The notes under the pieces are model-generated. The model was not told the origin of the DNA. It was given only the letters and a program-made list of their open reading frames with translations, and made no database searches. Of a stretch of 28,644 bases of DNA, positions 472 to 23,197 are shown piece after piece. Origin of the DNA: a virus; the IMG/VR virus record IMGVR_UViG_3300017987_000283, positions 1 to 28,644 of that record; one strand, written 5' to 3'. A program made the position numbers and the translations under genes. Positions within the stretch are counted from its first letter, which is position 1. Every line of letters starts with the position of its first letter.

Positions 472-798
472 TTATTTGGTACGTACCTGAATTCGTAACC
501 AGATACTTTTGAAAATCAATCCCGCAATAGTGGTCGGGATGTTTTCCCCTGTTCGGTGCTTGTCAACAGTAGGATCGTCTCTGAATTTCTCGCAGAGATT
601 CACCCTTGACCGGTTGTAGTTGATCGTCAACAGATATTTAATTTGCTCTGTGATATACCAGTGGATGCAGAAGGCGTTCCAGCACGTGAGCGGCCCAGGC
701 TGCTCGATACTTGCCAGTCTGCATACCAGTGTTCCATCCGCTTTCGTGTGGGGACATTCCCACTTGATTGACATTCCCCCGCTTACTTTGGCTATCAT
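472..798 (-). CDS. Hypothetical late protein, 108 aa
   Basis: The family is not recognised. The ATG overlaps the stop of the upstream tail/fibre gene in a TAATG junction and has a GGAGGAG ribosome site, so translational coupling is likely and the gene is probably real. The N-terminal half carries Cys and His residues (WECPH near residue 13, then several more Cys), which could bind metal. The C-terminal part is basic and mildly hydrophobic. Lying between the fibre gene and the last structural gene, it may be a tail-associated or assembly protein, but nothing in the sequence proves this. Confidence 0.55.
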   Translation of the reverse strand: MIAKVSGGMSIKWECPHTKADGTLVCRLASIEQPGPLTCWNAFCIHWYITEQIKYLLTINYNRSRVNLCEKFRDDPTVDKHRTGENIPTTIAGLIFKSIWLRIQVRTK

Positions 799-3137
799 TA
801 CTCCTCCGTACTTTCGATTGTTCTTTCATCCGTGTTTGAATCCAGAGTTCTCGTAGCAGTGTTTGAATCCAAAGTGCGAACGTTCCATTTCGTGAACCAT
901 TTCGAAACTATTGTCAGTACGCCATTAATGAATACGACCGCTGATGTTACCGTAGCTGTCACCGATAATCCGATAGAGGTTGAAGCGGAACGGGCAGCGA
1001 TGAATAACCGGCTTCCTGTCGGAGTGAGGCCGACCGCCACAGAAGCAGAGCGGAGAATTTCAGTTACCCGCGAGGCCGTCACGGAAAGACCTACAGCCGT
1101 TGTTGCGGAACGTCCCAAATCAGCCATTCGTGACGCGCTCACCGATAAACCAATAGCAACGGCGGAAGCTATCGCAATCCCTTTCGAGGCCGTGACACTC
1201 AAGCCGACAGCGGTAGCAGCAGAACGGGCAATCTCGGTTGCCCTGCCAGCGGTAACACTGGCACCTATAGCAGCACTCGCAGACCTCGCAATGTCTGTTG
1301 CTCTTGATGCCGAAACTGAGAGGCCAATGGAAACAGCCGCCGATAAAGCTCTGGCAATCGAACCTGTAATACTCAAGCCGACAGCGGTAGCAGCTGTTCT
1401 TGCTATAGTGGTTGCTCTCGATGCGGTTACAGATAGCCCAATGGCGTTAGATGCCGAACGGGCTATCTCAGTTACCCTTGATGCACTGACAGATAAGCCA
1501 ATAGATTGAGCAGCAGAGCGGGCAATCTCGGTTGCCCTGCCAGCGGTTATGGATAACCCGACAGCCACAGCCGCCGAGCGAACCCGGTTGAATACTTTGC
1601 TGGCAGCTACACTAAGGCCAACCGCTACACTGGCGGACCTTTCGGCAATGAATTCCCGGCCAGCCGAAACCGCTTCCCCGATGGCGACATTTGCCAATCT
1701 CTCAATATCTGTTGATCGGCTGCCCGACACGGAAAGCCCTATTGCTACACTGGCCGACTCGGTGTAGTTTCCACCCGTCGAATACGTCACAGCCAGCGCA
1801 GGCTTATTACTGCCGTAATCAGCACAGTAAAACTGAAATCCCATAGCTTTACTCGCTACCCAAGTAGGCTTATCGCTTGGATCACACTTCAACCTAGAAC
1901 CGAACTTTGAAGCCCCTGCGTCGTCAATCGCTGCTATCCCTGTTTCGTTGAGTGTGAACACATTGTCGCCACTCGAATTCCACGACCCCTCTGCGATTTC
2001 GTTGGCTAGGCTAGTAGTTCCAAGCGAATCATAATCACCTGCAACTAGTGAACCATCACTTGCAGGGGCAGATGACACGATTATGATCGTGGGAGTGCCT
2101 AACGTGGTATAGCTGTTAGTACCGCGCAGCGTAATAGTTGAGCCGGATATGGATAGCCCGGACGGTAAATCCGAAGTGTCGAAGACTAGAATCGGCCTGT
2201 ATACAGATGAAAACTGGTCTGAGGTATTGCTTGTGCTGACATATGAATAGGCATAGTCTTCGGTATCTCGCGCAGTTCCCGTAGCTGCCCCAACAGCATT
2301 GCTCCATATGTCATTCCCAGACCAGAACAAGTAACCGTCAACGCTGGTATTCCCGCCGCCTGATCCCGTATCCGGGTAAAAAGTGCTCGAATCTCCAATT
2401 GCTACAGGTATTTGCAGCATGGCTGCTATCGCTGCAAGCTGTTCGTACTGTTTAGCGGTAACAATCTCTCGGTCTGGGGAAACCGCAAACCTGCCCAGTT
2501 TGAGAAACCAATCACCTGTCTGGTTGTAGTCAAAACGGAAATCTTTGCCCGGATTCTCAATGATTACCCATCTATTAATCAATTTCCCTTCGATGATGCG
2601 GGAGTACCGCCTGCACCATTCATAGTCCCAAACCAGCACGTTAGCTTTGTAATTGGGGTTCGCAGGGTCATCTATCCACTCAGGGGTGATCGATTTCGGT
2701 TTCCACAGCTTCTCGTCAAGGAATAACTCAGGCTGGAACTGGACTTTCTGTCCTGCTTTCCGCCCGTCCGGCTGGTCGCACAAAACCTCGATTTCACACT
2801 GAGTTCCCTTTACAGTCGCCCGGAAAAGGTTGTGCTGTGAGACATAAGCCCCTGTCAGCGAGTCGTAAGTCCAGCCCGGATCGAGGGAATAACTATCACT
2901 GTCGCACATCGCTAACCCTTGAGACACGAGGATGTGATGGGTCTTGTTGATGATCCCATCAGTGAACTTGTAGCCTTTGGAGTACGGAGAGCCGCCATGC
3001 TGCCTAGCGTTGTATTCCTTGCAGAATTCAACCCGTTCGATAGGGACGCCCAACTGATCCATCATGCGAATGACAACAGGATCAGTGCATTCCTTGTTGA
3101 CGATGGGTTCGGTTAAAAGTCGTTGCGGTGTAATCAT
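798..3137 (-). CDS. Tail or fibre-like structural protein with 20-residue tandem repeats, 779 aa
   Basis: The first ~265 residues look like a globular, Trp/Tyr-rich phage structural domain. Residues ~265-465 are Ser/Thr/Gly-rich and beta-like. Residues ~465-725 contain about 14 imperfect copies of a 20-residue unit with consensus VAVGLSVSASRATEIARSA, a few shortened to 18. The C-terminus ends with a short hydrophobic stretch and two RTLDSNT motifs. SVAIG-type repeats recall the head repeats of trimeric adhesins, so a trimeric fibre is an inference. The ATG at 3137 has no recognisable ribosome site and starts only 8-10 nt after a terminator U-tract. Long plus-strand open frames across the repeats (such as 832-1509) are antisense shadows of the Ala/Ser codons. 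Confidence 0.75.
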   Translation of the reverse strand: MITPQRLLTEPIVNKECTDPVVIRMMDQLGVPIERVEFCKEYNARQHGGSPYSKGYKFTDGIINKTHHILVSQGLAMCDSDSYSLDPGWTYDSLTGAYVSQHNLFRATVKGTQCEIEVLCDQPDGRKAGQKVQFQPELFLDEKLWKPKSITPEWIDDPANPNYKANVLVWDYEWCRRYSRIIEGKLINRWVIIENPGKDFRFDYNQTGDWFLKLGRFAVSPDREIVTAKQYEQLAAIAAMLQIPVAIGDSSTFYPDTGSGGGNTSVDGYLFWSGNDIWSNAVGAATGTARDTEDYAYSYVSTSNTSDQFSSVYRPILVFDTSDLPSGLSISGSTITLRGTNSYTTLGTPTIIIVSSAPASDGSLVAGDYDSLGTTSLANEIAEGSWNSSGDNVFTLNETGIAAIDDAGASKFGSRLKCDPSDKPTWVASKAMGFQFYCADYGSNKPALAVTYSTGGNYTESASVAIGLSVSGSRSTDIERLANVAIGEAVSAGREFIAERSASVAVGLSVAASKVFNRVRSAAVAVGLSITAGRATEIARSAAQSIGLSVSASRVTEIARSASNAIGLSVTASRATTIARTAATAVGLSITGSIARALSAAVSIGLSVSASRATDIARSASAAIGASVTAGRATEIARSAATAVGLSVTASKGIAIASAVAIGLSVSASRMADLGRSATTAVGLSVTASRVTEILRSASVAVGLTPTGSRLFIAARSASTSIGLSVTATVTSAVVFINGVLTIVSKWFTKWNVRTLDSNTATRTLDSNTDERTIESTEE
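943..1765 (-). repeat. About 14 tandem ~60-bp coding repeats in the tail/fibre gene
   Basis: Each ~60-bp unit encodes 20 residues with a conserved IGLS...AS R...IARSA pattern. Some copies are nearly identical in DNA: about 38 bp around 1216-1253 recurs at about 1508-1545 with one or two changes. That points to recent duplication or recombination between units. Boundaries are approximate. Confidence 0.85.
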
Positions 3138-6734: not shown

Positions 6735-9700
6735 TTACTTCAACGCTTCGTCAAACTCTTTGTCCTTTTCTACAAAGTAATCCCGGCCAGCTTGTGCGCT
6801 GGTTTTGATCTTCTCGGCCAACGTCTGCATATCAGGATCGGTGAACACTTCCGTATTGATGTCTTCCGGTCGCGTCTGCCATCTCGGGGGTTCGGGTTCT
6901 TTGTCTACCTTGAATACAATGTTCGGGTCGATCTTGTACTTCCCGCCGTACTGTTCGTACTTGTCCCAGTCGAACTCTGACCATCCCATAACAGTTTCCA
7001 TCTGGTCCTCAAAGTCTGCGCCAAAGTTGTTGATAGCATCGCCCCGTGCTATGTAACGGTTCTTCATGTCGTCGGAAGGATGAGAAGAGTAGATTTGAAC
7101 AACCCACTGCCAGAACTCACGGCTGGGAATTTTGTTGAAGTCGATCTTCTCCTGATTCATCTTGGCTTCATTGGTATAAACGTTATGGTAGAACGGGCCG
7201 TGTTCGTACAGCCATTGCTCGGTTGCGTAGAAGTTTATGTCTTCGTTTTTGTCCTTCGAAGTGTCCCGCTTGATGTCCTCTTCCATGTATTCGACATAGG
7301 AATTGATCTCTGCGTCTGAGGCACCGGCAGGCCAGTCTTTAACGTCCATGGAATAGACGGCTTTTCGGTATTCCGGGGAAGCATTGAGCAACGCCTTGTT
7401 CTTTGCCTGACTTGCATTAAGCCCGTTCCTCTCGTGGTCCTCAATATCAAGCATCACTTGTACATGAGGTTCGATCATGTTTTCCGGTAATCCCTTTTCG
7501 TAACCGTCAACCTTGTAATATGCCCCGTCAAAGCCCGGATTGTCTGCTACGATGTCGTCAAACAGTTTATCTTTCAAAGCGGTGCGCTTCTGTTCGTCAG
7601 TCATCACATTCCATTGGTCAGCCGTGACGGTCCAGGGACGGGATATGCCATCAAGTGACATATCGTTAATCTCAGCCTTCCCGGTTTCCCACGCTTCGAA
7701 CTCTTCCGGCCAATGCGCTTTGACTGAGTACGCTTCTTTCGAGACAGGTTTGAGGTTGAACCAATGCCCGGTCAGCACATTCTCTACCTCTTCATTGGTA
7801 GCCCGGAATGCTCTGCCATCTGGCGCATCATAGTAACCGGACAGGCTGATTTGATGCCGTGCGTCCTCGTACTCCTGCATGAGCGGTCCCCATTGCTGAC
7901 GGGTGATCCACTTATCGAGCGCAAGGTTCTGCGCTTCGGTAAGTTTCGCCCTCAGTTCGCTCTCAAGAGTGTTCAGTCCCGGCCCTTTGGGAGTGTCGTT
8001 CGGCCTGACTACACCAGTATCAGGATCGGTAGCCTGTTTGAAGATATCGAAATACTGGATAATCGCAGCATCGTAAGGGTCTTCGGGAAGTTCCCCGGTG
8101 TCCTCGAATAGTTGAAAGTCCTTATTCGCCTGCATCTTCCGGTCGTATATCTCAGCTTTCAGCTTCCACGTTTCAGACTTCAACCAGTCTGAATTTTCCT
8201 TTGGAGTTGGAATATCCCCATGCTGATCGGGATAGTTCTCTGGGTGAATAACTCTATCCTCATACTCTTTGATAAGGTTCTCACCCCTTTGGATTCTCTG
8301 CTCATCCAGTTCGTTGTATATCTGCCAGCCACGTTCGCCGTGGTAGCCGTCAGACTCCATAGCGTCTTGAAGGGCTTTCATTTCCTTTTCAAACTCAGGG
8401 TCATGTTTGGCCTCGTGCTGCTGGACCATATTCAAGTCATCCCAGTTCTCAGCATGTCTTATCTGTTCGCCGTTCTCGTCGTATACCCAAAGCTCGTGGG
8501 AGTCAATGTAGTTCTGCTTGACTTTTGCGTATCGTTCGGAGTAGGTCTCATACGATAGGACGCTGATGCCGAAGACTTCAGGAATAGCCATAAATGCGCC
8601 TTTACCGCCTTCCTGCCCGATAGCATCCATAAAACCTTGAACTACCATCGGGAACATGCGCTCTTTTACCTGCTCAAATGTCCCGAGGTCAGCCGGTTCA
8701 AACTCTTGACCGAGGTAGGTTTCGCCCAGTTTGATATCGGTAATCAGCCCGGCAGTGGGCGACAGTTTGGACCTGATAAACCTCGCTATTAATTCATCCC
8801 TATCAATCGGCCTCACTACACCGGATGATGTTACCGTCTGTCCGGTTGCCATTCTTGCAGTCAGCACAATGTATTGCTGAAATCCTGCAAACGGGTCATA
8901 GCGGGTATTGCCAACCCTGATTTTGCCAAAGTCAGAAGATCGGGGGTCAAGTTCAACATCCAACCCGGCCATTATCGCCAGCCCGATTACCGAACCAACG
9001 AACCCGCTGAATACTCCAAGCTCTCGGATCATAATACGGCGAACTGGTGAGTTGATAGGGATGTTTGGATTGAACAGGAGGAAAGGCGTTGCAAGTCTCC
9101 CTGTCTGCAACCGGATTGAAAAGAAAGTGGTATTGACCACCGGCGCAACATCGCCTAACTTGCCAATCGGCCCACGACCGCTTACACAGTTGATAAACTG
9201 CCCCATCGCCTTGTATTCGGCAGGCTCGACACTCTTCCCCTTTTCTTCTCTGGATTTTAGGTATTGGTAATAATTCTTTGCTACGTTGAAGCGCAATACA
9301 TTCAGGTATGTGACGTAAGCACGTTCTGAAAGTCTGACAAACGGAATCTTTGATGCCAGCTTAGATTGGAAGGCTTCCTCTTGAATCTTCCTGCTCTCGG
9401 ATATCTTGCCGATATCAGTAAGCTCAACCCCCATTTCTTTTGTGACAGCCTCGTAATAGGGGTCATCCTTAATCATCTCTGCAATTTCAATATAGTTATC
9501 CTCACGTGCGAACGCCTGTAACTGCTTGCCAAATGCATCAATAGCAACAAGCGGATGATTGAGTGATAGCACTAGTCCTTGACGCCCAGGAGCCGACAAG
9601 TCCCACGAAGCAAGGAAAGCACGTGGGAGGTTTGCTATATCCAAAAGGTTGAGCAACACTCGGCGCACAACCTCCCTGTTCAATGCGGCCCTGTCGGTAT

Positions 9701-12700
9701 CCCCGAACAGAATCGAGTGTTCTTTGTTTCTAAGCAGGTCGTGAAGCTCGAAGATGGTCGTATTCGATACTTCCTTGAGGGTCTTTTCGCGGTTGAAGAA
9801 CGCTCTGGCATCAGGTGAAACGTCAGCCGGGATCAAGTCGCTGCGTCGGTAGACCTGCACCTCTTCACCTTTGGCCGCACCCTCTTTCCCTGTAACCGGT
9901 TTGCCATCAGAGTCAAGAACCTCAACGGTTTGACCGTCGGTGATAACGTAAGGGTCGGCATTGTAAGTATCGAGGGTCTGGGCAAACTCCTGACCGAACA
10001 CATAGACAAGCCGGTCCCATGCAGAGCCACCTTCAGGGAATAACCTTGAACCCGTCCCTCTCTTTTGCGGGATCGGCTCACCACGCAGAGCATTTTCAAG
10101 TGCGGAGCGGGTAGCCGTCTTTTCCCACTCGTCGGATATCTTCTCGTCAATCTGCTTATAGAGGTCTTCGATAGCTTCCGGTGATTGCAGCTGCTCAGGA
10201 ACTACGATGTTACCTTTGTCGTACTTCCCGGCAAGCTCCTGATTCGCTATACGATCCGCTTCCTGCCTGTCAATTCCTTGGGCTATCAACTCGTCATAGA
10301 CTTGCTTCTTACGTGCGATTCTGGCCGCACGTTGCTTCTTCAGAGTTTCTTGTACAGCAGGCTGCGCTTCAGCACTGGACCTGAGAAGCTGGACTATGGG
10401 GGTTTCGGGAATAGCAACGCTGGTTTCCGTCTCAACCTCTGTCCTCGCTGGCTCGGTTGGCTTTTGTAAACCTTCCTGCGAAGGTTCGACAACCTTATCC
10501 TCTACTTTGTCAACCTTTCCGCTTTCCTGCACGTTCGGTTCAGCTTCAACCTGTCCGGGAGTTTGTCCGGGTTCTTGCCCCGGAGGGGCAACCGGCACCC
10601 CCCCGGGTGTCTCTGAAGTCGCAACTTCAGAGGGGATCGATTCGCGCTGTCCCTGTTCGATAATCGTAGCCAGCCCTTCGCCAATCTCATCAAGGAAAAT
10701 CTCACCCTCCAACGTCTGCGTTAAATCCTCAAATGCAGCCGATGAAGCCTCTACCATGTCATAGCCTTGCTCAACCCTGTCCATAAACAGGGCGTTGTAT
10801 TTCACCCGCAAGCGGTCCATCATCTCTTCGGATATGTTGATATTGACAGTATCGGACTTGCCTTCACCTATGAACGACATACTCGCGCCGGGCAGACCGA
10901 ACAGCAAACCCATTGATCCGCCAGCAGTCATCACCTCAAGCCCTTCCTGGCTGAATATGTCAAACTCTCTTCCTGACGCACTGGCAGAAAACACCTCCTG
11001 CCCGATTTCCTGACCACCTTCAGACCCAACAGACCACAAAACTTTAGACGCAAACACAGCGGTTTTCTGCAACAGCCCCGATCCTTTAACCGGAGCAAGC
11101 GTGCCGAGCCATTGTAGTGTTTCAGTCCCGCCAAGAAGTCCCGTATTCTGCCAGAAGACCTTACGTGCTGCACTAATCGCCGCGTTCAGGCTGCCAGTCT
11201 TGCCGTAAACCTCATTAAAAGACCAGCCTGCCTCTAGTGTTGCTTCTGATACAACTTGCGGGGCAGTCATTCCCAACGCTCCTAATACCCACTTGCCAGC
11301 CTTCGCCCCCCAAGAATATTTAGTCAAGGCAGCAGGGACAGCGGCGGTACTAGCTACGCCACCAGTTGCAATCCCCACCATAAGATTTGTCCATATTATC
11401 GGTATGTTCGGGGCAAGAGCTTCGTTAACGAACCAGTCAAGCGTTCCGAATTCAGAGGTTGTATGAGGATAATGCGCGGCAGTGTCCTCCTCTATGTTCA
11501 GGGCCATCTTAGCCAACGACTCTGACTTAGTAGCTGCTGCAAGCGAACCAACTGACCCACTCATTACATTGCCCCAACCACGCATCACTCCATTGCCCCA
11601 CGCTTTCAATGAACTTGGCCTGTGCTTCTTACGGATCGCCTCAGTCTTTAACGCCTGTTGTTTGGCATAAGAAAGGAACTCGTCATCGGTCAGCCCCAAG
11701 TCTTCCTTTGTTCCGGGGAGCAAAAGCATCTCGCCATTGAACGGGTTGTGATGAACGGATACAAAGCCTCTTTTAATCGCATTCTCAAGCCCTTGATCGA
11801 AAGTCTTGACCAAATCTTCAACCCTTTCATCTTCGCCGTGCTTGGCAATGTAGTTATCTGACGTATGTTCGGCAATCAAATCAAGCGTGTTTACCAGTTC
11901 CTCATAGATGATCGGCGCAGGCAGAGAAGCTATATTGCTCTCAACCTTGTTCGCCGCAGACTCAGCAACCCCTTGCGGAGCAGTGAAGATATCCATATTC
12001 CGCGTCTTGAAGTCACCGAACACATCATCAATAGCGATATCCTGATACCCCAACCGGCGCAGTAACCGTTCCTTTTCAGGGGTCCGGCCACCTTCAGCCA
12101 TCCAATTGTTGAACACATCCGGTCTTGTCTTGAGCGGTTCGAGAGCTTTTGCCATCTCCAGATCGGGGAAAGCACGCTTGAAGTCATACTCAAGCTGCAA
12201 TGTTTCGAGATACTGTTTTGCTTCCGGTGTCCCGCGTTGCTCGATATCCCAAGCCAGCCACTTCATGCGCTGGTCAAGCTCTTCGCTTGGTGACTCAAGG
12301 GACTGCAAAGCAAAGGCAGCATATTCGCTTAATCCCGGATACTGACCGAGGGGAGAATCTTTGTATGCCTCGATTGCTTTAGAGTACGTTTGAATAAACT
12401 GCTCTTGCCTCTTGTGCTCGTGATAAGTCTCAGGCGTGGTGTAAAGCGTCTTCCCTTGAATAGTCGAAAGCTCAGGCATCGCCGCTACAGCTTCGGACGG
12501 TATCCATTCACCATCAGGAGTAATGAAGACGTTATCATCAACCTCGTAAGGCGTCTGAGGGTTGTTGTCCATCACCGTCCAGCCGTCAGGTAATCGCAAG
12601 TCGAGCCGGTAGCCCGGGTTAATCTTGTTCATGCGCCCTTTGTCCGGGCGAACAATGAAGTCAGCCTCACCGAACACATCAGGCACATCGAACCAGTCTT

Positions 12701-12977
12701 GCAGTTCAGCACCTTTGAACGTGTAGCCCTCACCGATATCGGCTTGCTTGCTCAAGTACCCAAGGAACTTGTCAGCATTAAGCGTGGTGATCCCATCAGG
12801 GACAGGACGAGAAGCAGACGGGTTAAACTGAGACGTACGTAAGAAGTTCTCCCCAGCCTCAGCCCCTCGCTCTTTGGCGATATCCTGCGCCTGCCACTCA
12901 GGGAAGTCAGCTTTAGTGATGCGCCCAGGCCTTCGATATTCAGTCTTGATCTCTTCGTCAGTCCAAACTTTACCCAT
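6735..12977 (-). CDS. Giant polyvalent or ejection-type virion protein, about 2080 aa
   Basis: Residues ~1-430 are soluble and helical. A hydrophobic, Ala/Gly-rich region with several possible membrane segments lies at ~475-690. A disordered Pro/Glu/Gln linker lies at ~785-870. Residues ~1070-1420 carry a block resembling a domain of large polyvalent and internal virion proteins, with motifs DLSAPGRQG, NCVSGRGP and LDPRSSDFGKIRVG, and a hydrophobic stretch near 1330. I think this may be the LPD38 type. The last ~650 residues are charged and helical. Gene position between portal and scaffold fits a protein packaged in the head and injected with DNA. No protease or transglycosylase motif is evident. 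The ATG at 12977 and a TTG at 12989 are both possible starts, and neither has a strong ribosome site. Confidence 0.7.
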   Translation of the reverse strand: MGKVWTDEEIKTEYRRPGRITKADFPEWQAQDIAKERGAEAGENFLRTSQFNPSASRPVPDGITTLNADKFLGYLSKQADIGEGYTFKGAELQDWFDVPDVFGEADFIVRPDKGRMNKINPGYRLDLRLPDGWTVMDNNPQTPYEVDDNVFITPDGEWIPSEAVAAMPELSTIQGKTLYTTPETYHEHKRQEQFIQTYSKAIEAYKDSPLGQYPGLSEYAAFALQSLESPSEELDQRMKWLAWDIEQRGTPEAKQYLETLQLEYDFKRAFPDLEMAKALEPLKTRPDVFNNWMAEGGRTPEKERLLRRLGYQDIAIDDVFGDFKTRNMDIFTAPQGVAESAANKVESNIASLPAPIIYEELVNTLDLIAEHTSDNYIAKHGEDERVEDLVKTFDQGLENAIKRGFVSVHHNPFNGEMLLLPGTKEDLGLTDDEFLSYAKQQALKTEAIRKKHRPSSLKAWGNGVMRGWGNVMSGSVGSLAAATKSESLAKMALNIEEDTAAHYPHTTSEFGTLDWFVNEALAPNIPIIWTNLMVGIATGGVASTAAVPAALTKYSWGAKAGKWVLGALGMTAPQVVSEATLEAGWSFNEVYGKTGSLNAAISAARKVFWQNTGLLGGTETLQWLGTLAPVKGSGLLQKTAVFASKVLWSVGSEGGQEIGQEVFSASASGREFDIFSQEGLEVMTAGGSMGLLFGLPGASMSFIGEGKSDTVNINISEEMMDRLRVKYNALFMDRVEQGYDMVEASSAAFEDLTQTLEGEIFLDEIGEGLATIIEQGQRESIPSEVATSETPGGVPVAPPGQEPGQTPGQVEAEPNVQESGKVDKVEDKVVEPSQEGLQKPTEPARTEVETETSVAIPETPIVQLLRSSAEAQPAVQETLKKQRAARIARKKQVYDELIAQGIDRQEADRIANQELAGKYDKGNIVVPEQLQSPEAIEDLYKQIDEKISDEWEKTATRSALENALRGEPIPQKRGTGSRLFPEGGSAWDRLVYVFGQEFAQTLDTYNADPYVITDGQTVEVLDSDGKPVTGKEGAAKGEEVQVYRRSDLIPADVSPDARAFFNREKTLKEVSNTTIFELHDLLRNKEHSILFGDTDRAALNREVVRRVLLNLLDIANLPRAFLASWDLSAPGRQGLVLSLNHPLVAIDAFGKQLQAFAREDNYIEIAEMIKDDPYYEAVTKEMGVELTDIGKISESRKIQEEAFQSKLASKIPFVRLSERAYVTYLNVLRFNVAKNYYQYLKSREEKGKSVEPAEYKAMGQFINCVSGRGPIGKLGDVAPVVNTTFFSIRLQTGRLATPFLLFNPNIPINSPVRRIMIRELGVFSGFVGSVIGLAIMAGLDVELDPRSSDFGKIRVGNTRYDPFAGFQQYIVLTARMATGQTVTSSGVVRPIDRDELIARFIRSKLSPTAGLITDIKLGETYLGQEFEPADLGTFEQVKERMFPMVVQGFMDAIGQEGGKGAFMAIPEVFGISVLSYETYSERYAKVKQNYIDSHELWVYDENGEQIRHAENWDDLNMVQQHEAKHDPEFEKEMKALQDAMESDGYHGERGWQIYNELDEQRIQRGENLIKEYEDRVIHPENYPDQHGDIPTPKENSDWLKSETWKLKAEIYDRKMQANKDFQLFEDTGELPEDPYDAAIIQYFDIFKQATDPDTGVVRPNDTPKGPGLNTLESELRAKLTEAQNLALDKWITRQQWGPLMQEYEDARHQISLSGYYDAPDGRAFRATNEEVENVLTGHWFNLKPVSKEAYSVKAHWPEEFEAWETGKAEINDMSLDGISRPWTVTADQWNVMTDEQKRTALKDKLFDDIVADNPGFDGAYYKVDGYEKGLPENMIEPHVQVMLDIEDHERNGLNASQAKNKALLNASPEYRKAVYSMDVKDWPAGASDAEINSYVEYMEEDIKRDTSKDKNEDINFYATEQWLYEHGPFYHNVYTNEAKMNQEKIDFNKIPSREFWQWVVQIYSSHPSDDMKNRYIARGDAINNFGADFEDQMETVMGWSEFDWDKYEQYGGKYKIDPNIVFKVDKEPEPPRWQTRPEDINTEVFTDPDMQTLAEKIKTSAQAGRDYFVEKDKEFDEALK

Positions 12978-12994
12978 GTCAATTACCAAATTCT

Positions 12995-17161: not shown

Positions 17162-17199
17162 TTCAAACCTCAATAGTTCACATTGTGAATTAAAAGTCA

Positions 17200-17327
17200 G
17201 GTTTCCCTAAGAAACTGTCACGGTTTCCCTAAGAAACTGTCAAGCATGTTATGTTAATCTTCACGGTTTCCAAAAGAAACTGTCGCACGAGTGAGGCTTT
17301 TTTTCTGACGGTTTCCCTAAGAAACTC
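17200..17327. repeat. Four dyad iterons (GTTTC-N5-GAAAC) upstream of the packaging genes
   Basis: The unit GGTTTCCCTAAGAAACTGTC occurs at 17200, 17222, 17265 (two base changes) and 17310 (3' end altered). Each is an inverted repeat GTTTC-N5-GAAAC. Spacings of 22, 43 and 45 bp are multiples of about two helical turns, so a protein would bind the same DNA face. The array lies between the stop of the winged-helix gene and the 42-aa gene. Confidence 0.85.
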
Positions 17328-17354
17328 TTTTATATAATCTACCATCCCATGTAC

Positions 17355-17669
17355 TTATTTTATTTGCGGGTCATGTGTTCCGGTAAGCTCATAAAGGCAG
17401 TAGTAACGGTAAAGCCCGCCGTGTTGAGTTTTCCGAATCCACCCTTTTTGTTCCAATCCTTTAAGCGCCTTCCACACCGTCTTATGCCCCAGGATTCCTT
17501 CGAGTTCCGAATACGTTAAGGGTATTTCACCGTTGTTTGATCCGTTGAAGTTTGCTTTTATGTAGATGTAAGCTATCTGCTCAGTGTGCGATAACTCTTT
17601 CCACGGTTCACCCCGCAGCATTCGTTTGTCCAGCATTACAAACGGCGGGCCTTTCTTCTTCCTTGGCAT
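17355..17669 (-). CDS. Winged-helix DNA-binding protein, 104 aa
   Basis: After a basic start (MPRKKKGPP) the pattern fits a winged helix. Helices lie near residues 22-38 (LSHTEQIAYIYIKANF) and 50-58, a recognition-type helix at ~61-75 (GHKTVWKALKGLEQKGW), and a beta wing at ~76-92 (IRKTQHGGLYRYY). Similar domains occur in phage replication or transcription regulators. It is the first gene after the late promoter and two terminators, and the iteron array starts 28 bp past its stop, so the iterons are natural candidate targets. The ribosome site is AAAGGGG 7 nt before the ATG. Function as late regulator or packaging-site binder is inferred. Confidence 0.65.
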   Translation of the reverse strand: MPRKKKGPPFVMLDKRMLRGEPWKELSHTEQIAYIYIKANFNGSNNGEIPLTYSELEGILGHKTVWKALKGLEQKGWIRKTQHGGLYRYYCLYELTGTHDPQIK

Positions 17670-17863: not shown

Positions 17864-17893
17864 TCTATACCACAATCGTAGCTAGCTTGTCAA
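17864..17893 (-). promoter_or_regulatory. Probable late promoter
   Basis: On the minus strand a perfect -35 box TTGACA (17893-17888) is followed by an 18-bp spacer and TATAGA (17869-17864). It points toward the late operon but is followed within 80 bp by two terminators, like lambda pR' and tR'. Confidence 0.65.
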
Positions 17894-17974
17894 GCGAGTG
17901 GGATTATAAACGTTTTTTGATCGTAAATCAGGGGTTAAGGTGGGATTTTTTACCAATTGTTTATTTTTACCCCC

Positions 17975-18003
17975 TTGACAGATGTATTTTTGTCTGTTAT
18001 TAT
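17975..18003 (+). promoter_or_regulatory. Sigma70-type promoter of the moron unit
   Basis: TTGACA (17975-17980), 17-bp spacer, TATTAT (17998-18003). ACAGA and TCTGT form an inverted repeat across the spacer, possibly an operator. The first start codon is 28 bp past the -10 box. Confidence 0.75.
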
Positions 18004-18030
18004 GTGAGTATCAAAGTTAGGAGGGAAACA

Positions 18031-18555
18031 ATGGACTATACCACACAGATATCGGGAGAAATTACCATCGGGGATATCATGGATTTAATCCACGGAAATC
18101 AAATAGAGCCGTGCGACGAGTTCACCTCAGCAGCAGGATCAGACTGTGGCAGGGTGGAAGTTTTCGAGATAGGGAGTAAGTACCTTATTAAGTATGGTGA
18201 TAATGGTGAAACTAACTACGAGATAATGGACGAGTACGGCCCAAACCTTGGTGAGTGGTTAGAGTATGATGATGTAGAGGGTATCTACAAGATTATACAA
18301 CAGGCCATGATCTACGGGATAGCTAACGTCGAAGCCGCATCCGAGCAGCATGATGATTGCGAGTATTACGTGTTGTATACATCCCATCTATACGGGCCAG
18401 TCGAGCATACAATCATCAGCCAAGATGATGATGGGGACGAAGCAGTATTTAGTACATTAAATGAAGCCCAAGAGTATGTTCGTACAGCCGATAGTGGGCC
18501 TATGTATTTGGGCCACAATGAGTATAGTCAGCAATACACAATTGTAGAGATTTAA
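18031..18555 (+). CDS. Acidic hypothetical protein, 174 aa, possible moron product
   Basis: The family is not recognised. The protein is strongly acidic, with many Asp/Glu/Tyr residues and a QDDDGDEA run near residue 131, and has no membrane segment. The C-terminal part (HLYGPVEHTIIS, then a helix LNEAQEYV) looks like a small alpha/beta domain found in phage hypothetical proteins. I use the ATG at 18031, which has AGGAGGG at proper spacing right after the promoter. An upstream in-frame start would lie before the promoter. Its acidity permits a DNA-mimic role, but that is speculative. Confidence 0.75.
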   Translation: MDYTTQISGEITIGDIMDLIHGNQIEPCDEFTSAAGSDCGRVEVFEIGSKYLIKYGDNGETNYEIMDEYGPNLGEWLEYDDVEGIYKIIQQAMIYGIANVEAASEQHDDCEYYVLYTSHLYGPVEHTIISQDDDGDEAVFSTLNEAQEYVRTADSGPMYLGHNEYSQQYTIVEI

Positions 18556-19975: not shown

Positions 19976-20025
19976 CCCCTCTACCCCCTTGAATTGTGAT
20001 AATCTAACGATGCAGTTAGTTGATT

Positions 20026-20916
20026 TTACCGATTTGCGCCTAACAGGTCAAGTCGGTCAGCCGGGCTTAACTCCTGCATAGTCTTGTTAGTTAATTGATT
20101 CATCACTTTGCGCCCGTACACATTTTTGATCTGTGACATATCCGCATGACCCAGGATAAATTGTAGCTGCCAGCCTCGTTCCGGTCCACCAACGGTTAGA
20201 AATTCACATGAATAAGCGGAGCGAAACAGATGCACTTTACGTCTTCGAACCCCACTGGCGACGCACAGCTTTTGAACCATGCTATAAATCCCGCTTCGCG
20301 TCAGTTTGCACCCTCTCCGACTGACAAAGAAATACTCATTATCCGACCGGGCCTTTTCATACCTCTTTAGCGCATCATGGGTCCTGTCTCCCCATGATAA
20401 TCGTTTTCTCTTTCCATACTTCTCAGTCACCATAACCTGCCGATTTTCGAAGTCCATGTCCCCCGCTTTAATATTACACATTGCGGTTGTGCGAATTCCA
20501 GTATCATATAGGAACAGGACAATTGCTGTGTTTCGTATCGATAGTTCATCCTGATTCGGTTCCAAATAACAAAGCATCTTCGCCACCTCGGATGGCGTAA
20601 ATGGGTCCTCCTCACATGGTGTGGCTTTTGGCTTCTTGATATTCGCACACGGATTGGCCGATATATACCCTTGGGCATAAGCCCACGAAAACATTGAGGC
20701 TAAACAACGAACATCGCCTTCAATAGTGTTTGAAGACTTCCCTTGCTGCCTTCGATAATCCATGTAATCATAGATTATGTCCTCTCTAACGGGTCGGTTG
20801 CGAACACCGGTTGTAAGTAACCATTGCTTGAATATCTCAAGTTTTTGCGCGTGCCATTCTATTGTTCTTGCTTTGTCGCCCTTCGCTTTCAAATACTCAA
20901 GATACAATCCAAGCAT
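20026..20916 (-). CDS. int: Tyrosine recombinase (phage integrase), 296 aa
   Basis: It catalyses site-specific recombination between attP and the host tRNA-Lys attachment site. The core-binding domain covers residues ~1-100 (LYLEYLKAKGDKARTIEWH onward). The catalytic domain has all active-site residues in order: R142 (DTGIRTTAM), K169 (KYGKRKRL), H229 and R232 (HLFRSAYS), H257 (LGHADMS) and nucleophile Y267 (NVYGRKV). I prefer the ATG at 20916 because GGAG lies 7 nt upstream and the length suits XerC/D-like phage integrases. A TTG at 21033, overlapping the repressor stop, would add 39 residues but has no ribosome site. Confidence 0.92.
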   Translation of the reverse strand: MLGLYLEYLKAKGDKARTIEWHAQKLEIFKQWLLTTGVRNRPVREDIIYDYMDYRRQQGKSSNTIEGDVRCLASMFSWAYAQGYISANPCANIKKPKATPCEEDPFTPSEVAKMLCYLEPNQDELSIRNTAIVLFLYDTGIRTTAMCNIKAGDMDFENRQVMVTEKYGKRKRLSWGDRTHDALKRYEKARSDNEYFFVSRRGCKLTRSGIYSMVQKLCVASGVRRRKVHLFRSAYSCEFLTVGGPERGWQLQFILGHADMSQIKNVYGRKVMNQLTNKTMQELSPADRLDLLGANR

Positions 20917-21034
20917 TTCCGATCTCCATTGGTTTCTGCAAAACTGCGCCTGCACACGTTGCCGGATCACCTTCGCCCCCTTTGCAATAGATAAGAGTCC
21001 TATAGAATACAGGAAATCACAAAGGGGTGTCAAA

Positions 21035-21460
21035 CTATGAAAGTAAGTTGGCGAAGTTGAGGGCTAACGGAGCCGGACTTTTAATCCGGGTGTCGAGGGT
21101 TCGAGCCCCTCCCGACTCACCAGTTTTCCTCGATGAGCCGTTCTGTTTACCACTATTTTGAGCTACCGACCTTGGTCTAAAACCCGATATTGTTTCATCT
21201 AAAGATTCTTGCCCAAGGAAATACTCTATCCTCTGCTTCGTGACAGCCGATGACGCTTCAAGCATTGACCACGTGACCTCTTTAACATAACCCTTAGTCC
21301 ACGACCAAACAGTCTTACCAGTTAAACCACCTTCCTTATAACCCACTTCTCCAAATTTCTGTCCAGCCTCTTCATAACTAAGCCCGGCCACCATTAATGC
21401 CAGGTCAAGCTTCAAACCAAACCGGCGCGGCGTTAACTTTATACGGTTTTGAGTAACCAC
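21035..21460 (-). CDS. XRE-type repressor with attP inside its 3' end, 141 aa
   Basis: Residues ~17-83 fit a helix-turn-helix of the XRE/CI kind (LALMVAGLSYEEAGQKFG, then LTGKTVWSWTKG, then a helix ending IEYFLG). There is no peptidase domain, and residues ~84-112 are a polar linker. Residues ~113-129 (GESGGARTLDTRIKS) are the antisense translation of the tRNA-Lys fragment, and the last 12 (PLALNFANLLS) lie beyond it. The GTG start has a perfect AAAGGAGGTGAT ribosome site. The gene diverges from the early operon at paired operator-promoters, and integrase follows at once. A repressor role is inferred from fold and position. Confidence 0.75.
   Translation of the reverse strand: MVTQNRIKLTPRRFGLKLDLALMVAGLSYEEAGQKFGEVGYKEGGLTGKTVWSWTKGYVKEVTWSMLEASSAVTKQRIEYFLGQESLDETISGFRPRSVAQNSGKQNGSSRKTGESGGARTLDTRIKSPAPLALNFANLLS
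21073..21122 (+). other. attP: attP core: 3' half of a tRNA-Lys(TTT) gene
   Basis: From the anticodon stem onward the fragment is a perfect tRNA: stem CCGGA/TCCGG with loop CTTTTAA (anticodon TTT), a 5-nt variable loop, T-arm GAGGG-TTCGAGC-CCCTC, acceptor strand CCGACTC, discriminator A and encoded CCA. Upstream bases do not form a D-arm, so no functional tRNA is present. Lying about 150 bp from integrase, it is the expected phage copy of a tRNA attachment site. The identity core could extend a few bases further left. Confidence 0.85.
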
Positions 21461-21501
21461 TTTATCACCTCCTTTCGCCTCCGCGCTTTACTGTAGACAT
21501 G

Positions 21502-21530
21502 ATTTTACCATGTGGGTGCTGTGTTGTCAA
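21502..21530 (-). promoter_or_regulatory. Repressor promoter
   Basis: On the minus strand TTGACA (21530-21525), 17-bp spacer, TAAAAT (21507-21502), with the GTG start 42 bp downstream. Its -35 box lies inside the left arm of the operator inverted repeat. Confidence 0.8.
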
Positions 21531-21575
21531 CATTTGTAAGATTTTGGTGTTGACAAGGCCAAAATAGTATGGTAA
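21505..21575. repeat. Nested inverted repeats centred on 21540 (operator)
   Basis: TTGTCAACA (21524-21532) is mirrored by TGTTGACAA (21548-21556). TTACCAT (21505-21511) is mirrored by ATGGTAA (21569-21575). Both pairs share the same centre, 21540, and overlap respectively the -35 and -10 elements of both divergent promoters. Confidence 0.85.
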
Positions 21576-21578
21576 TAT
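21550..21578 (+). promoter_or_regulatory. Early (lytic) promoter
   Basis: TTGACA (21550-21555), 17-bp spacer, TAATAT (21573-21578), 40 bp before the first early start codon. It is arranged as the mirror image of the repressor promoter. Confidence 0.85.
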
Positions 21579-21618
21579 ATTGGCGTGGAAGAGGTAAAGA
21601 TTTTACGGAGCCTGTAAC

Positions 21619-21801
21619 ATGCCGAAGTCAGTTGAAGAGATAGTCAAGGCCAATTTCCCGGATGAATGCGAGACGTTAGGAGACGCGGCAAAGATGATCG
21701 CCAGGTCACTAGCTCGGACCAAGAGCATACCGAAATCTGCTGGAGAGTTGGGGCTTTCCCGGTCTGGACTGTGGAAGTATCTCAACTATCAAAAGGTATA
21801 G
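21619..21801 (+). CDS. Small helix-turn-helix protein, 60 aa (Cro-like position)
   Basis: This is the first early gene, divergent from the repressor. The C-terminal half (IPKSAGELGLSRSGLWKYLNYQKV, residues ~37-60, split here as IPKSAGELGLS and RSGLWKYLNYQ) has the pattern of a helix-turn-helix recognition unit. The N-terminal half is a short helical segment. GGAG lies 9 nt before the ATG. By position it could act as Cro, an early regulator or an excisionase. The sequence alone does not choose between these. Confidence 0.7.
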   Translation: MPKSVEEIVKANFPDECETLGDAAKMIARSLARTKSIPKSAGELGLSRSGLWKYLNYQKV

Positions 21802-21811
21802 GAGGGAACCC

Positions 21812-21970
21812 ATGACAACCACCACCAAACCAAAGACCTGCGTTCACCACTGGGTAATAGACCCGCCTAACGGTCGCTACTCCGAGGGCGTGTGTCAGAA
21901 GTGCGGGCAAGTCAGGGAGTTCGACAACTTCCCCGATACATCTCAATGGCCTGATAAGGATGGTGAATGA
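21812..21970 (+). CDS. Small zinc-binding protein, 52 aa
   Basis: The frame starts MTTTTKPKTCVHHWVIDPPN and has C10/H12/H13 and C28-x2-C31 (CQKCG), the spacing of a small zinc ribbon of the kind often seen as short phage proteins. GGAGGG lies 5 nt before the ATG, and the stop overlaps the next ATG, so expression is coupled. No specific function is recognised. Confidence 0.7.
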   Translation: MTTTTKPKTCVHHWVIDPPNGRYSEGVCQKCGQVREFDNFPDTSQWPDKDGE

Positions 21971-22185
21971 TGAAGATTATCCGATTCAAAAGCAAAGATG
22001 ATTACAACAAAGCTCTTGCATTTTTCAAGCGTGAAGCTGGCCTTACCGAAGCGGTAGGCCCAAGAGTAGGAGTGGTTTTCTCGCCCATCGTTCGGGTGAA
22101 ACTCACTGGCCGATACGTCCCACGCTTGGGATGCCTCGATTACTACGGAGAAGAGGTCAAGATTACCGGGAGCTATTTGAATTGA
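21967..22185 (+). CDS. Hypothetical early protein, 72 aa
   Basis: The protein is basic, with an N-terminal alpha/beta pattern (MKIIRFKSKDDYNKALAFFK) and a strand-rich Val/Gly C-terminal half. It overlaps the upstream zinc protein by 4 bp. ATGs at 21967 and 21970 are both possible. The family is not recognised. Confidence 0.6.
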   Translation: MMKIIRFKSKDDYNKALAFFKREAGLTEAVGPRVGVVFSPIVRVKLTGRYVPRLGCLDYYGEEVKITGSYLN

Positions 22186-22199
22186 AAGGAGGAAAGGTT

Positions 22200-22277
22200 T
22201 TGAGGGAAATCGAACTGAGGCTGATAGCAGCACTCGACAGGATAAACAGATTCTTAGCCGAGATTGAGGGGAAATAA
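22200..22277 (+). CDS. Possible 25-aa amphipathic helical peptide
   Basis: A TTG start right after a strong AAGGAGGAAAGG site opens a short frame, MREIELRLIAALDRINRFLA then EIEGK. The pattern of Leu/Ile with Glu/Arg is an amphipathic helix. The ribosome site supports translation, but the size and TTG start make this uncertain. Confidence 0.4.
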   Translation: MREIELRLIAALDRINRFLAEIEGK

Positions 22278-22317
22278 GGAAAGCCCCCTCACGCCGAAAC
22301 GAAAGGAGGACTAACCC

Positions 22318-22623
22318 ATGACAGTAACTATTATACCACAAGTGGAAGTAGAAATGCCAACTTGGGAAGAACTAGTCCACGGAGTGAACGAACGAAGGGC
22401 CTACTACTGGCAAAAGGTCATCGACGAAACCTGCGAGGCCGAATGTGGTGGACGATGCGCCTACCCTCATTGCGAGACGATTAAAGAGCGTTTCGAGGAA
22501 ATGATAGAGGACCACACCTGCCAGCATTGTGGTAGGCTCATAGGCCCAAATGATGACCGGTTTAACGTCCCCGGTGTTGGGATATTCTGCAATCGAGATC
22601 ATGCTGAAAATGGGGTGCTGTGA
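22318..22623 (+). CDS. Cys-rich zinc-binding early protein, 101 aa
   Basis: Two clusters can be seen: C-E-A-E-C-G-G-R-C with CAYPHC near residues 38-52, and a second CQHCG knuckle near 68 with a later FCNRDH near 89, as in LIM- or RING-like or HNH-like zinc folds. No catalytic HNH residues are evident. The ATG has AAAGGAGGA at 8 nt. The stop overlaps the next start (TGATG). A DNA- or protein-binding role is plausible but not shown. Confidence 0.65.
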   Translation: MTVTIIPQVEVEMPTWEELVHGVNERRAYYWQKVIDETCEAECGGRCAYPHCETIKERFEEMIEDHTCQHCGRLIGPNDDRFNVPGVGIFCNRDHAENGVL

Positions 22624-22748
22624 TGGACTTTGTATTTGGCATATTCCAAGACCTTTTGAAAAGAGAGCCGATCAATGAGACGCAGACCGACCAAGAGATT
22701 GAGGAAGAACAAATCGGGAGAGAACAAATAAGAGATAGGGGGCAATGA
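22623..22748 (+). CDS. Small Glu/Gln-rich protein, 41 aa
   Basis: MDFVFGIFQDLLKREPINET is followed by a highly charged helix rich in Glu, Gln and Arg. The N-terminal ~12 residues are hydrophobic and amphipathic. The start overlaps the upstream stop and the stop overlaps the next ATG (ATGATG), so it fits the operon exactly. Function unknown. Confidence 0.55.
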   Translation: MDFVFGIFQDLLKREPINETQTDQEIEEEQIGREQIRDRGQ

Positions 22749-23197
22749 TGGATGAAGAAGTAAAAGATGTGAACTTTGTAATCGATACCATATTCAGGAA
22801 CATCTACAAAGGCGACAGGGGGAACACGGTTTGGTACAAAATCTCCACCACCAATGGTGTGAGCTATGCGGTGTGGGAATCCGAGGACGTTAACCGGATA
22901 GACGTGGCGGGTGACCCCCAAGCCCCCCAAATCCTCAAAGGGGCAACCATATCCGGCAAATGTACCGTGGATGGCAAGGGCAGGAACAAGTTGGAAGGCG
23001 TCCAGGTACAGGCCACAGGCCACGACTTCGACGAGAGTGGGGGCATTAGGGAAACCCACCAAGACGGGCAGGCAAGGGGGAATGCAAGAACGAACCTGAC
23101 CAAGCTGGTTTGCGAGTCAACTGTAATGGACGAGGAAACTCGCCGAGATTTGACCCACCGCCTGATTGCAGCGTTTGAAGACATTGCAGGGATTTGA
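22745..23197 (+). CDS. Hypothetical early protein, possibly nucleic-acid binding, 150 aa
   Basis: It has no recognised motif. The first ~90 residues are strand-rich with Tyr/Trp (NTVWYKISTTNGVSYAVW) and a Gly/Lys segment (KCTVDGKGRNKLEGVQVQATG), which could form an OB-like fold. The remainder is polar and helical, ending in IAAFEDIAGI. Its place upstream of a NinB-like and an HNH gene suggests a recombination or replication role, inferred from context only. Confidence 0.6.
   Translation: MMDEEVKDVNFVIDTIFRNIYKGDRGNTVWYKISTTNGVSYAVWESEDVNRIDVAGDPQAPQILKGATISGKCTVDGKGRNKLEGVQVQATGHDFDESGGIRETHQDGQARGNARTNLTKLVCESTVMDEETRRDLTHRLIAAFEDIAGI

Follow-up and report, generated by a model that had tools for sequence, protein, structure and literature searches.

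The window, by which is meant the whole stretch of 28,644 bases that was analysed, is a viral record (a 28.6-kb contig) from an uncultured virus of bacteria. The structural genes (terminase, capsid-like) lie on the minus strand and DnaB is encoded on the plus strand. The locus described here holds a putative repressor reading frame, a phage attachment core lodged in the 3′ part of that frame and a tyrosine integrase gene (Table 1). A twin contig, IMGVR_UViG_3300029267_000633, is 99.7% identical to positions 1-22778 of the window, reaches 3.1 kb past the left end of the window and is without any difference from it across 20000-21907. As the same region is identical in the twin, the placement of attP within a reading frame is not an assembly slip. 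In both contigs the attachment region is flanked by phage DNA on either side, so both are in the unintegrated form.

Table 1. Features of the attachment locus and its surroundings, with positions in the window.
Feature	Position	Strand	Description
Armless (XerC/D-like) tyrosine integrase	20026-20970	-	PF00589, PF13102, TIGR02225
RNA hairpin predicted to mask the integrase SD	20967-21060	-	In read-through transcripts, not in RNA from the integrase promoter
Integrase promoter-like site, TTGACA-18-TATTCT	21004-21033	-	Between core and integrase, on the integrase side
Viral-only ORF tail, PLALNFANLLS and stop	21035-21072	-	Integration splits it from the gene; its DNA overlaps the integrase hairpin on the 5′ arm
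Putative immunity repressor ORF	21035-21460	-	141 codons, GTG start; SD AAGGAGGTGAT just upstream
attP core, tRNA-Lys(UUU) 3′ half	21073-21122	+	50 nt, CCGGACTTTTAATCCGGGTGTCGAGGGTTCGAGCCCCTCCCGACTCACCA; from tRNA comparison
Putative repressor promoter, TTGACA-17-TAAAAT (11/12)	21502-21530	-	Promoter-like motif
Operator-like inverted pair, TTGTCAACA (21524-21532) and TGTTGACAA (21548-21556)	21524-21556		Overlaps both -35 boxes
Putative early lytic promoter, TTGACA-17-TAATAT	21550-21578	+	Promoter-like motif; leads to the 60-aa HTH gene
Cro-like small HTH protein, 60 aa	21619-21801	+	Weak Fis-type HTH_8 match, E 0.0022, below cut-off

The core contains the whole anticodon arm, the T arm, the acceptor 3′ strand and the CCA of a tRNA-Lys(UUU), and there is no complete tRNA anywhere in the window. 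Over its first 46 nt, the core differs at a single position from a complete tRNA-Lys that ARAGORN calls on a MAG contig (L005, 6125-6200). A 50-nt tRNA half adjoining an integrase gene is not a chance occurrence and, going by the identity of the core, the host tRNA-Lys(UUU) gene would serve as attB. The core runs antisense to the repressor frame and occupies codons 113-130 of its 141. The earlier note had correctly placed a tRNA-Lys 3′ half within the frame, although what it described as the last third is the last fifth. As stop codons are absent from two of the core's three antisense frames, it is cheap and unremarkable for an ORF to stay open across it. Within the core, a 7-base anticodon loop (21078-21084) lies between CCGGA and TCCGG. 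The anticodon loop is a common crossover place of tRNA-targeting integrases. In G054, a prophage also located at tRNA-Lys, the identity of attR starts exactly at this loop, and crossover of the window phage within 21078-21084 is likely.

The reading frame that contains the core is preceded by a near-perfect Shine–Dalgarno (SD) sequence, and the codon score of its codons 2-80 resembles that of the phage's other genes. By eye the product is XRE-like, with approximately eight additional residues ahead of the presumed recognition helix. Its earlier designation as XRE-type was not confirmed by the searches. At E-value limits of 1 to 10, searches of Pfam, PHROGs, NCBIfam and PDB sequences yielded no match, and two AlphaFold models were poor (pLDDT 39.6 and 47). 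Profile alignment to XRE repressors was weak (residues 13-58, E 0.01 but a probability of 4%), and the Foldseek matches, with many XRE proteins among them, were non-significant. In the usual repressor/Cro layout, two back-to-back promoters share operator-like repeats, and one of them leads to an HTH gene. Here a strong SD precedes the ORF, and a promoter pair with common operator-like sites separates it from a small HTH gene on the other strand. It is therefore probably the repressor, an assignment rated as highly likely once the genomic context is included.

The integrase gene directly follows the repressor frame, as had been claimed. Its product matches the Pfam family Phage_integrase (PF00589, 4.7e-22) and consists of an N-terminal SAM-like domain (PF13102) and the catalytic domain, without an arm-binding domain. 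The match to the XerD-like model TIGR02225 (1e-35, 123.5 bits) is far under the equivalog cut-off of 329.6, so the protein is not XerC/D itself. Translation probably starts at GTG 20970, with the SD AAAGGGGG at 20983-20976, and an alternative start is available at ATG 20916. The annotated N-terminus of a homologue falls at about the equivalent place and favours GTG 20970.

The repressor and integrase genes are adjacent on the same strand; the integrase also has a separate promoter-like site and a hairpin predicted to mask its SD. Across the entire window, counting both strands, only six promoter-like sites reach at least 10/12, and the site at 21033-21004 is one of them. As it lies between the core and the integrase gene, this promoter-like site travels with the integrase on integration. 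The proposal that integration leaves the integrase promoterless was rejected on account of this site. It had also been claimed that the integrase loses the repressor promoter on integration, but the integrase need not depend on that promoter, as its own promoter-like site stays with it when the core is split.

The predicted hairpin has a z of -3.29; no shuffle out of 200 was as good, and 9 of 1142 windows were equally extreme. The predicted unpaired probability of the SD is 0.00 in read-through RNA and approximately 0.8-1.0, for seven of its eight bases, in RNA from the integrase promoter. If the integrase starts at ATG 20916 instead, it uses a ribosome site other than the masked one. The viral-only tail DNA contains the hairpin's 5′ arm, and tail codons overlap that arm at 21045-21060. 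According to this RNA model, it may be base pairing in the RNA, and not a role as a degron, that maintains the sequence of the tail.

Past the core, the viral frame continues for 11 whole codons (PLALNFANLLS), codon 130 being shared with the core. When the frame is read through the core into the 5′ half of a host tRNA, it gives VLYQLSYRL and then runs onward. With the core in codons 113-130 and the frame read into the host tRNA, the view that integration swaps the last ~12 residues for host-encoded ones is upheld. Built with the L005 tRNA, the modelled lysogen form comes to 162 aa, compared with the 141 aa of the viral protein. Surrogate tRNAs with T at position 7 give a stop after VLYQLS in every case (22/22). 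The phage acceptor strand carries C66, by which G7 is required in the host tRNA. In the 13 surrogates that combine G7 with a standard D-loop, and that stand in for the true host, no stop falls within the tRNA, and the product exceeds 141 aa in 12. The truncation of the repressor put forward in the earlier note is not borne out by this modelling, in which the frame stays open in all 13 suitable surrogates. It is not to be expected, since the tRNA 5′ half demanded by the phage C66 has an open antisense frame. A stop could still arise if the D-loop of the true host tRNA were of unusual length.

Integration would proceed by recombination of the core with the host tRNA-Lys(UUU) gene, probably at the anticodon loop. 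This would restore the host tRNA beside the end of the repressor gene and shift the integrase, together with its own promoter, to the other end of the prophage. The DNA-binding part of the repressor would be unaltered in the viral and integrated states. The probably disordered tail would change from PLALNFANLLS to VLYQLSYRL and host-encoded residues, with no stop made by the junction. The integrase would be transcribed from its own promoter. In read-through RNA, originating from the repressor promoter in the virus and from host antisense RNA in the prophage, the integrase ribosome site would be folded away. It is most likely that either form of the repressor gives immunity and that integration is not what turns immunity on. 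The best explanation of the whole, judged moderately probable, is a rep-attP-int module in which the last 11 residues of the repressor are exchanged by integration, probably with no on/off switch of immunity.

This module invites comparison with the integration-dependent immunity of the mycobacteriophages BPs, Brujita and Charlie (clusters G, I, N, P). Shared with these phages are the order of repressor and integrase on one strand, an attP core that lies towards the 3′ end of the repressor frame and has a tRNA target, the armless tyrosine integrase and the divergent Cro-like gene. The repressors are all of 120-141 aa (Charlie 123, Brujita 128, the window ORF 141). In the known system, the repressor and integrase genes are cotranscribed, the attachment sites are without arm-type binding sites, a directionality factor is not evident and, in BPs, the junction creates a stop (PMC9262239). 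No recombination directionality factor was recognised among the scanned proteins of the window, which included a minority of the small ORFs.

The sequences of Charlie and Brujita were used as controls for the known switch. The Charlie repressor ends in DSAA and the Brujita repressor in EHAA, while the integrases end in LSAVS and LSAA, respectively. Unlike these phages, the window phage is without terminal ssrA-like tags: the LAA/AA type of ending is absent from both the repressor (...NFANLLS) and the integrase (...LLGANR). Further differences are that junction-made truncation is not expected and that the integrase gene is preceded by a promoter-like site of its own and by a ribosome site predicted to be masked. 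No integrase promoter-like site is found in the matching stretch of Charlie or Brujita by the sigma-70 consensus, which may score poorly on actinobacterial controls. In addition, the window core differs from the tRNA-Lys type of mycobacteria. The suggestion of a BPs/Brujita-type order therefore stands for the gene order and for attP in the frame. It fails for the ssrA-like tags; in addition, the modelled junction does not truncate the repressor, and the integrase need not depend on the repressor promoter alone. The available tests argue against a BPs-type switch, and the locus is best classed as a lysogeny module of rep-attP-int order that resembles integration-dependent immunity.

The alternatives differ in the role that they give to the tail. 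Under a true BPs/Brujita-type immunity, the 141-aa viral form would be destroyed via its tail, and the tail-swapped lysogen form would be stable and repress. The same gene order, attP position, tRNA site and armless integrase speak for this, as do the removal of a hydrophobic C-terminal tail on integration and a repressor size near those of the two control phages. Such a switch is nevertheless unlikely, since neither protein has the ssrA-like AA ending present in both control repressors, the modelled junction makes no stop and the integrase has its own promoter-like site, as opposed to the cotranscription of the known system (PMC9262239). As a counterpoint to the preferred reading, the architecture is very close to the known switch in its rep-attP-int order, attP within the frame, tRNA site, armless integrase and 141-aa repressor. 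The absent AA tag may leave room for another degron, e.g., the hydrophobic tail. Moreover, the repressor is assigned from position and weak similarity, and the integrase promoter and hairpin are predictions. An integration-dependent immunity by tail swap, with a non-mycobacterial tRNA core, would have LALNFANLLS as a non-AA degron that is replaced, without truncation, by the tRNA-encoded VLYQLSYRL, and an integrase insulated by its own promoter and hairpin. This version is regarded as distinctly unlikely.

The tail could also matter as RNA. Ribosomes that end the long repressor frame would partly open the SD-masking hairpin through translational coupling; integration would break this link and leave the integrase silent to read-through. 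The overlap of the tail codons with the hairpin arm (21045-21060) and the predicted masking of the SD in read-through RNA are consistent with such coupling. When 21052-21022 is blocked, simulating a ribosome at the repressor stop, the SD is partly freed, but of its eight bases only the first three are then largely unpaired. The promoter-like site of the integrase bypasses the hairpin, the integrase start codon is putative and the hairpin comes from a single phage lineage, too few for covariation; this role of the tail is considered improbable. Finally, the ORF could be another regulator or an orphan gene whose overlap with attP is incidental, in keeping with the poor structure models and the lack of matches in Pfam, PHROGs, NCBIfam and PDB sequences. 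The strong SD, the divergent promoter pair with operator-like sites and the HTH gene opposite make this highly improbable, and the XRE profile alignment, though weak, falls in the right region.

In the earlier note, a tRNA-Lys site was taken to extend the switch to a different phage group; for systems of this kind, such a site has precedents, both in Gordonia phages and in several of the prophages compared here. In the Gordonia cluster CW phages (GMA5, GRU3, Jeanie, McGonagall), attP matches a tRNA-Lys gene and degradation tags are reported (PMC5559632). Likened to the window by architecture and not by genome comparison, these phages share its small genome size, the integration-dependent immunity architecture and a tRNA-Lys attP; they differ from it in the reported degradation tags and in having an actinobacterium as host.

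Among 119 viral stretches that carry a comparable 3′ half of tRNA-Lys are seven prophage loci (L026/L035/L131, L041, L103, L135 and L058) in which, as in the window, an XRE-like repressor frame enters the core in antisense. Five repressor types are distinguished among them by eye. All seven records are cut at the tRNA, which is of the same GAGCTAC type. In contrast to the window, the host tRNA appears to give a stop at or just past the core (RIKSP and stop, or SSTN before TGA). Judged from their sequences, these seven are probably integration-dependent immunity systems at tRNA-Lys. Within the 119 stretches, none of the loci with an internal half-tRNA has an XRE-like repressor frame running into the core, and the arrangement is therefore not a generic by-product of tRNA-Lys use. 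No repressor frame through the core was seen in G054, the only one of eight tRNA-Lys prophages whose record is untrimmed at the far end.

No lysogen was found in the sequences searched. The integrase had no match in a scan of genome contigs, and the core-pattern search of genomes returned one MAG only. In 45 genomes of the phylum of this MAG, the core was matched only in the MAG itself. The repressor had no relative there, the hits being antisense-tRNA matches and weak noise, and a portal-like match was marginal. Since these searches came back empty, the L005 MAG serves as a tRNA surrogate and not as a demonstrated host. Scans of viral contigs with the repressor, integrase, terminase, portal-like and capsid-like proteins recovered the twin contig only, too narrow a sample to follow the evolution of the tail. 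A tblastn search of the repressor against phage and plasmid sequences gave nothing useful.

To judge by titles and abstracts, the surveyed papers that use the phrase "integration-dependent immunity" all deal with actinobacterial phages or review them. The window locus indicates that a repressor-like frame can contain attP without recognised switch parts. A tagless rep-attP-int arrangement with a non-mycobacterial tRNA core either resembles a precursor or cautions that a switch should not be deduced just from the order of the genes.

Several further observations concern the remainder of the genome. Inside 20000-22778, the window differs from its twin almost exclusively at 22449-22745, with 3-nt indels among the differences. 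This segment falls in a small CxxC-type ORF (22318-22623) and the first part of the ORF after it, and the cluster, as read from the two sequences, is a local allele replacement. At 17196-17329, a 24-nt repeat occurs four times (GGTTTCCCTAAGAAACTGTC core, with GTTTC/GAAAC arms within) at spacings of 22, 43 and 45 nt. The repeats adjoin a replication-initiator-like ORF (17355-17669) and are possible origin iterons or operators. A plus-strand promoter-like site, TTGACA-17-TATTAT (17975-18003), is among the few TTGACA sites of the window. It sits within the listed ORF 17887-18555, upstream of the internal starts of that ORF, and could possibly serve an additional transcription unit. One ORF of 2084 aa (6735-12989) fills more than one-fifth of the window, in a phage of small genome, and is possibly an internal virion protein. 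The 779-aa protein encoded at 798-3137 carries tandem alanine/serine-rich repeats (VGLSVSASR units) that match each other, and is a probable tail or fibre protein.
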